Origin: Procambarus clarkii
Lineage: Eukaryota; Arthropoda; Malacostraca; Decapoda; Cambaridae
Direction of reading: 5' to 3'
DNA length: 64,000 bases
NCBI RefSeq assembly: GCF_040958095.1
Contig: NC_091165.1
Coordinates: 25,934,769-25,998,768 of the forward strand
Part shown: positions 19,398 through 20,132 of the stretch, piece by piece
Layout: each line of letters opens with the position of its first letter
Numbering within the stretch: the stretch's first letter is position 1
Notes under the pieces: generated by a model
Seen by the model: only the letters and a program-made list of their open reading frames with translations
The model's database searches: none
What the model was told of the DNA's origin: nothing
Position numbers and translations under genes: made by a program

Positions 19398-20132
19398 TTA
19401 CGTAAGCGTTCCTTGTGTTCCTTTTGTGGCTTGTGGTTGTGTCTGGTGTGTGTGTGGCTGAGGCTCACAGGTCCGGCTACACTTACACCGCAGGATCCAC
19501 TCCACTTGATGATGTACCACCTCATAGCTGTCGCTCTTGATGTGCTCGTACTCCAGGTCGTCCTCCACAAGTAAGTTGCTGTGTACCAACTGTAGGGTCG
19601 CGTCATGGTCGTCGGCCGCGCCGCCTCCGACTACGTTGTATTTATAGTAGTCACTGGCTGCACGACTATGGCCACGGTGGTGGTGGTTGAGGCCATGCAG
19701 GTGGTCGTGACCACGGCGGTGGTTGTGACCATGAAAGTGGTCGGTGACAGGGTGCTCCTCGATTGCTGGTTCATCTTCTTGTGCTCGTTGTGGATAGGTT
19801 AGAGCAGGTTCCAGGATAGGTTGTCCTTCATCCATCATGTCGTACACGTCAGGAACATGAGTGGTGGTGGTGGTGGTGGTGTGGGGGACGGGGCGTGTGC
19901 GCCGGAGTCTGGAGAGGATGTGGTAGCGGGGTCGCGGCGCTGACAGGTCGTTGTTGTAGTGGAGAGGACACAGAAATGCGACGGAGATGGTGGTGGAGGC
20001 GTGCACTGTGCAGCAGCGGTCTGTGCACGCGCCGCACTGCTTGGGTTTGTAGCGGTGCTCGCTGACGCACCAGCCTGCACGGAGTCGTACCGACTTCACT
20101 TGCCTCTGTGTCGCCTTGCACGTGTGTCCGCG
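19398..20132 (-). CDS. Ccn: CCN coding exon 6: cystine-knot (CT) domain with long His-rich loop, and stop
   Basis: Residues 267-510 and TAA. Acceptor TGTGTTGGCAG/CGC. The knot has [24 protein letters not shown] and a Cys at 321, then resumes with [11 protein letters not shown] (Cys 482, 484, 488), ten Cys in all as in CCN knots. Between Cys 321 and 482 lie an arginine-rich furin-like motif (RLRR, about 341-344), a seven-Thr run encoded by an (ACC)n tract, an acidic segment, a histidine cluster (about 398-421, alternating His with Gly/Asn/Asp/Arg) and a second acidic segment. The 22-residue tail after the last Cys is Gln/Thr-rich. Confidence 0.92.
   Translation of the reverse strand, partial: RGHTCKATQRQVKSVRLRAGWCVSEHRYKPKQCGACTDRCCTVHASTTISVAFLCPLHYNNDLSAPRPRYHILSRLRRTRPVPHTTTTTTTHVPDVYDMMDEGQPILEPALTYPQRAQEDEPAIEEHPVTDHFHGHNHRRGHDHLHGLNHHHRGHSRAASDYYKYNVVGGGAADDHDATLQLVHSNLLVEDDLEYEHIKSDSYEVVHHQVEWILRCKCSRTCEPQPHTHQTQPQATKGTQGTLT

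Follow-up and report, generated by a model that had tools for sequence, protein, structure and literature searches.

The last exon of a CCN gene of the crayfish Procambarus clarkii appears to encode a complete ten-cysteine knot that is divided by a loop of 160 residues between its seventh and eighth cysteines, and a long loop is found at the same place in two further CCN genes of this genome. In the reading preferred here, this segment is an insert in the finger-2 hairpin, away from the ring of the knot, and it could serve as an acidic tether that shields the protein's own basic surface, with a histidine-rich block that would make the shielding responsive to pH or zinc. The probability of these parts holding jointly is estimated at roughly 0.4. 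The window, i.e., the whole stretch of DNA analyzed, comprises 64,000 nucleotides (C16:25934769-25998768 of the 4.03-Gb P. clarkii assembly), and the gene lies on its minus strand.

Gene Architecture

Five exons join in frame to 467 residues and a stop codon, with consensus splice sites upstream. The IGFBP exon (28699..28906 (-), 208 nt; GCAG acceptor, GTGAGG donor) matches Pfam PF00219 with E 1.2e-8 and 35.9 bits against a cut-off of 28 (E 4e-8 in a second Pfam search). The VWC module is distributed over two exons, the first half at 26127..26218 (-) (92 nt) and the second at 25363..25492 (-) (130 nt), and when joined these barely exceed the cut-off of PF00093 (27.7 against 27.6 bits). The TSP1 exon (20472..20710 (-), 239 nt) is of the CCN type (TSP1_CCN, PF19035: E 8.3e-15, 55.2 bits against a cut-off of 27) and matches the solved CCN3 chain 6rk1 with E 1.1e-10. 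The last exon (19398..20132 (-), 735 nt, with an AG acceptor present) contains the C-terminal cystine knot, the inserted loop and a tail. A signal-peptide exon was not found among six hydrophobic Met starts located upstream by a script, none of which could be joined to the IGFBP exon.

Judged by its modules, the window gene is a CCN gene, as the initial annotation had proposed, and it has four modules (IGFBP, VWC, TSP1 and cystine knot): the first three modules are above the Pfam cut-offs, and the fourth has the ten knot cysteines. The module order IGFBP-VWC-TSP1-CT is that of the vertebrate proteins CCN1-4 and CCN6, with their CT (CTCK) domain. The two VWC exons differ from the vertebrate genes, in which this module is encoded by one exon according to the part of PMC6610741 used here.

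The Cystine Knot

Knot part 1 (19968..20132 (-)) carries cysteines 1-7 and ends in FLC; knot part 2 (CKCSRTC), together with the tail, is encoded by 19398..19487 (-). The ten cysteines occupy exon residues 5, 22, 33, 36, 40, 41, 55, 216, 218 and 222, which gives the spacings 16-10-2-3-0-13-160-1-3. The corresponding spacings in human CCN2 are 16-10-2-4-0-13-15-1-3. The ten cysteines are in register with those of human CCN2, and the number of residues between cysteines 7 and 8 is 160 in the window protein versus 15 in CCN2. Cys55 (codon 19970-19968) and Cys216 (codon 19487-19485) enclose the loop (19488..19967 (-)). Both the complete knot and the separation of about 160 residues that had been described for this exon hold, as do their coordinates, strand and frame.

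Without the loop, the ten-cysteine knot aligns with human CCN2 at a score of 140, whereas shuffles with fixed cysteines score 38.3 on average and none of 2000 reaches 140; the same is true for the paralogue copy C6a. The signature CGxCTD..CCTxHxxTT is common to the window knot and human CCN2. With 12 Lys/Arg versus 2 Asp/Glu, the knot is strongly basic. No Pfam model matches the last exon, either with or without the loop, and neither of two PDB sequence searches returned a relevant match (one unrelated chain at E 0.43 in the second); what identifies the knot is therefore how its cysteines are ordered, the signature shared in the alignment and its place behind the other modules. On these grounds, the last exon is read as encoding a CCN knot at the C-terminus whose ten cysteines follow the order of the family. 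The loop was considered as the reason why Pfam misses the knot, and this was not borne out, since the knot without the loop is missed too.

The initial annotation had set this loop against the short one of known CCN proteins. That difference stands in relation to human CCN2 (about 15 residues), but not within the crayfish genome, where the two other CCN proteins also have a long loop (123 residues). A short loop between cysteines 7 and 8 is regarded here as typical of CCN proteins but not as a mark that defines the family.

Composition of the Loop

The loop opens with a basic Pro/Arg stretch (19881..19967 (-)) containing RLRR and LRRTRP, followed by a run of seven Thr (19860..19880 (-); six ACC codons and one ACT). 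An acidic part with a conserved 10-residue motif comes next (conserved block 1, 21 residues, 19785..19847 (-)), then a His-rich block (19668..19739 (-)) with 11 His in 24 residues and six overlapping HxH patterns, and then a second acidic part, which ends in a conserved 13-residue stretch. Conserved block 2 (34 residues, 19488..19589 (-)) closes the loop, and the strand by which finger 2 returns is assigned to its end. In total, 25 Asp/Glu, 14 Lys/Arg and 21 His are present. The seven-Thr run, the two acidic blocks (one before and one after the His block) and the 24-residue segment with about half His, all reported previously from the letters of the window, were recovered.

When the exon's own residues were shuffled, at least 11 His per 24-residue window occurred in 3 of 20000 shuffles and a seven-Thr run in 1 of 20000. 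At the DNA level, the His block falls together with a tandem repeat of 18 bp (TRF 19682-19741, 3.3 copies; three copies at spacing 18). The His block is derived from this repeat and the Thr run from an ACC microsatellite.

CCN Paralogues in the Same Genome

An exon search of the genome revealed two further CCN loci, C6:24063906 (+) and C6:24174501 (-), and the TSP1_CCN profile clearly matches the same three genes. Exon peptides locate IGFBP, VWC and TSP1 modules beside both C6 copies (the IGFBP module of C6a from residue 10 only). Both C6 knots have ten cysteines in register and a loop of 123 residues at the same place, and about 235 residues follow TSP1 in these genes versus 271 in the window gene. 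The loops of all three share the 10-residue motif, LTxPQR and VEDDxEYxxIKSDxYExVHxQVEWILR. Each of the three retains Tyr residues in acidic context, in VYDMMDE and EDDxEYxxI. Only the window gene has the Thr run and the His block, and its loop is longer than the C6 loops because of the 18-bp and ACC repeats that encode them. By this comparison, the long loop is common to all three CCN loci found, and the specialty of the window gene is its His and Thr repeats.

PF19035 has five matches in the genome at E 0.1, three of them clearly above the cut-off (two on C6, one in the window). The other two were rejected as CCN genes by our own reading of the letters. C16:25727259 rises above the cut-off only together with its neighbors, and its own strand reads another kind of TSP1 repeat (WGPCSVTCGLGVQTRQLTC); the match on C20 falls short of the cut-off, and its letters, too, read as a TSP1 repeat of a different kind.

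The inverted C6 copies hardly differ in TSP1 (227 of 228 bases the same) or in their CT exons (dS about 0.025), while their IGFBP exons have diverged (only 133/180 bases and 42/60 residues identical). When 40 kb were compared on each side, aligning stretches longer than 300 bases were found only around exons. This pattern suggests gene conversion or a patched duplication. A 30-bp minisatellite, which reads TLDSTQDGQP, extends up to the CT exon in both copies. The C6 loops also contain an N-glycosylation motif, NLT, which reads NLL in the window gene.

Furin-like RXRR motifs are found at exon residue 75 in the window gene (RLRR) and at residue 108 in both C6 copies (RSRR), where the next residue is Pro in one copy and Ala in the other. 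Proline directly after the site hinders furin. Cleavage at these motifs could convert the knot into two chains linked by disulphides, and the ends of the loop would be exposed or set free. Such processing is nevertheless improbable as the function of the loop, since the sites differ in place between the two gene types, Pro directly follows RSRR in one paralogue and a four-residue basic motif easily arises by chance. For CCN2, cleavage is described in the part of PMC10326224 drawn on here, but it takes place in the hinge that precedes TSP1.

Translation and Constraint of the Loop

The loop is in the same exon as the knot and in frame, as had been claimed, and exon 20132..19398 reads 244 aa and a stop codon. 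Shuffling the bases of the loop kept the frame open in 4 of 2000 cases. Rates of change were calculated for the window gene versus C6a by our own Nei-Gojobori script, as point values without a significance test. For knot part 1, dN is 0.085 and dS 0.824; for the whole loop (119 alignable codons), dN is 0.415 and dS 0.815, so that its change at the protein level is about five times that of knot part 1. For the last 32 loop residues, dN is 0.181 and dS 2.2, and versus C6b dS is saturated and not computable.

Within the two conserved blocks, differences fall mainly on the third codon position. Block 1 (21 codons) has 6 synonymous codon changes and 5 residue changes, and its differences at codon positions 1, 2 and 3 number 3, 3 and 8; in block 2 (34 codons), there are 9 synonymous codon changes and 9 residue changes (9, 5 and 14 by position). 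The corresponding numbers for knot part 1 are 6, 3 and 21 (55 codons). Across the whole loop, they are 50, 31 and 47 (119 codons), and the third position is not favored. The seven codons of VYDMMDE are identical in DNA too and cannot, on their own, separate protein constraint from DNA constraint. The 10-residue motif has 10/10 residues kept between the paralogues at a synonymous divergence of about 0.8. By these counts, constraint at the protein level applies to parts of the loop, the remainder being loose.

Part of the loop could instead be an intron or an alternatively spliced segment, i.e., an artefact of exon prediction, and the secreted knot would then have a shorter loop. A convincing in-frame GT-AG pair was not found inside the window loop: the best of 74 pairs scores 3.8, in contrast to about 11, 16.9 and 17.6 for the real pairs of the gene (sums of donor and acceptor). 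The scores use approximate frequencies from general knowledge, and the yardstick consists of these three real pairs (the IGFBP donor and the acceptor of the first VWC exon being left out). Each C6 paralogue, on the other hand, holds one in-frame GT-AG pair (75 residues) that scores 10.0, near the weakest real pair, and its removal would leave 48 residues; this pair is not among the best five of the window loop. The earlier statement that the loop is not a splicing artefact is supported for the window gene by the conserved paralogue blocks and the lack of a convincing pair in its loop; the pair in the C6 copies speaks for an artefact. The third-position excess in the conserved blocks, which the whole loop lacks, also argues against an artefact, and this explanation is considered very unlikely. 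Since conserved blocks are kept in the paralogues at dS of about 0.8 and no good GT-AG pair is present in the window loop, the loop is taken as translated; that it is translated and partly constrained is the most likely reading.

A more serious alternative is that the tip of finger 2 simply accepts disordered sequence, to which slippage during replication keeps adding length in this genome rich in repeats. Constraint would then apply only to the return strand (13 residues) and perhaps to the 10-residue motif, and the His and Thr tracts would do nothing. The origin of the His block in an 18-bp tandem repeat and of the Thr run in an ACC microsatellite agrees with this explanation, as do the roughly fivefold dN of the loop relative to the knot, the spread of whole-loop differences over all codon positions and the 115 tandem-repeat rows (some overlapping) in the window. 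It accounts less well for the full retention of the 10-residue motif, for the acidic Tyr sites kept in all three loops and for the net acidic charge of each of them at pH 7.4. Tolerated filler is possible and nearly as likely as the shielding tether.

The loop was also considered as a spread mobile element. In a genome search with the loop alone, in which the 60 best candidates were scored, every match below E 0.01 belongs to one of the three CCN loci; the match that follows them (E 0.066) contains a stop codon. Because nothing but CCN loci falls below E 0.01, the loop looks unlike a spread repeat.

Position in the Fold and Proposed Mechanism

In CCN2, C273-C307, seen by mass spectrometry, joins the finger tips, C284-C323 and C287-C325 form the knot, and strands beta3 and beta4 make up finger 2 (PMC10326224, in the part used here). 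In our alignment, window Cys55 corresponds to CCN2 C307 and Cys216 to C323; hence homology places the insert, with good support, within the hairpin of finger 2, next to the disulphide that links the tips and not in the ring of the knot. Owing to this position, the knot could fold around the insert. An AlphaFold2 model built from a three-row alignment (mean pLDDT 32.9, pTM 0.15) is too poor to use; its strands 40-44, 52-56, 203-207 and 215-219 suit an insert between strands and are given no weight.

CT domains of CCN proteins take part in the binding of heparin and contain basic residues; knots of the TGF-beta family have their heparin site between the loops of the fingers (both from the part of PMC2683937 consulted). 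The calculated charge of the window loop is -8.6 at pH 7.4 and +5.2 at pH 6.0; for the loops of the C6 paralogues, it is -18.1 and -12.7, respectively. We infer, as the preferred mechanism, to which these features point weakly, that the loop could be a disordered, acidic and possibly tyrosine-sulphated tether. It would fold back onto the strongly basic knot and compete there with heparan sulphate or a receptor. The acidic Tyr sites kept in all three loops would allow sulphation. In the window gene, protonation of the His block or its binding of Zn would cut the negative charge of the loop and free the basic face.

A 35-residue His-rich peptide of histidine-rich glycoprotein (HRG) binds Zn (PMC5988744, in the part seen), and ligand binding by the whole protein is Zn- and pH-dependent (PMC5372734, likewise in part). 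HRG resembles the window protein in its His-rich tandem repeats, in being secreted and in meeting heparan sulphate (same part of PMC5372734); the two are unrelated, the likeness concerns the way of working only and the Zn and pH effects were measured for HRG alone. By this analogy, the proposals of the initial annotation that the loop could bind metal, respond to pH or change how heparin is bound are plausible. A stronger version would make the binding of Zn or Cu by the His block the main function of the loop in the window gene. The density of His (11 in 24 residues) with six overlapping HxH patterns and the HRG peptide speak for it; both paralogues, however, retain the loop without the His block, and HxH patterns arise for free from a repeat origin, which makes a metal site unlikely as the main function. 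Neither paralogue has the His block, so the general role of the loop cannot depend on it.

Comparison with Other Cystine-Knot Proteins

In Spatzle and other cystine-knot ligands, which belong to another family, a long loop is located in a finger and not in the knot ring. To our knowledge, no acidic or His-rich composition has been described for long loops of the Spatzle type. In open-access literature searched for CCN proteins of arthropods or crustaceans and for long insertions in CTCK knots, no title or opening of an abstract among the matches listed describes a loop of this kind, which could still be published elsewhere. Pattern scans of prokaryote (44 matches) and viral (8 matches) contigs gave no relative and are uninformative on arthropods.

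According to PMC6610741, IGFBP and CT were lost from arthropod CCN proteins; Table 1 of that paper, the part on which the following comparison relies, contains a single arthropod, the fly. Unlike the proteins covered by this statement, the window gene keeps both IGFBP and the knot. The CCN protein of Drosophila melanogaster (NP_730294) is listed in Table 1 without IGFBP, and SMART finds no CT in it. Eleven rows of the table were compared, ten of them non-arthropod and one of the fly (other vertebrates, lamprey, human CCN1 and CCN5, a short ascidian record and flatworm were left out): 306 residues follow TSP1 in the fly protein and 96 to 112 in the ten non-arthropod proteins. The fly protein and the window protein are thus alike in being long after TSP1 (306 versus 271 residues) and in that domain models find no CT in them (SMART for the fly, Pfam for the window gene). 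Going by these table figures alone, the extra length of the fly protein may hide a similar loop, and the published values hint at a long loop throughout arthropods.

If this is true of the fly, the long loop would be ordinary for arthropods. It would also call into question the published loss of CT in arthropods, which draws on domain searches with the fly as its example (PMC6610741, as far as drawn on here), since a knot split by a loop is easily missed. A wider and rather doubtful proposal is that arthropod CCN proteins kept CT with an old acidic, sulphated, self-shielding insertion in finger 2, which a repeat expansion turned into a pH- and zinc-gated switch in this crayfish gene. CCN proteins are matrix signals, and their CT knot is linked to dimerisation and to the binding of heparin and receptors; with a long insert conserved at the tip of a finger, nature would have tested which side of the knot is the active one. 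The His block, for its part, represents a repeat expansion within a disulphide-rich signaling domain in which all cysteines were retained.

Surroundings of the Gene

A 41-bp minisatellite of seven copies (window 18901-19185) starts about 210 bases past the stop codon of the CCN gene, possibly in the 3' untranslated region. Large clean minisatellites with units of 29, 40 and 36 bp are located at 15701-16843, 42656-43906 and 51485-51846, respectively. At 31562-34012 (-), a pair of open frames, with 321 and 486 residues, resembles, as we take it, reverse-transcriptase parts of a non-LTR element. A short open frame at 58125-58313 (-) has a signal-like start right after AG and is perhaps an exon of another secreted protein.
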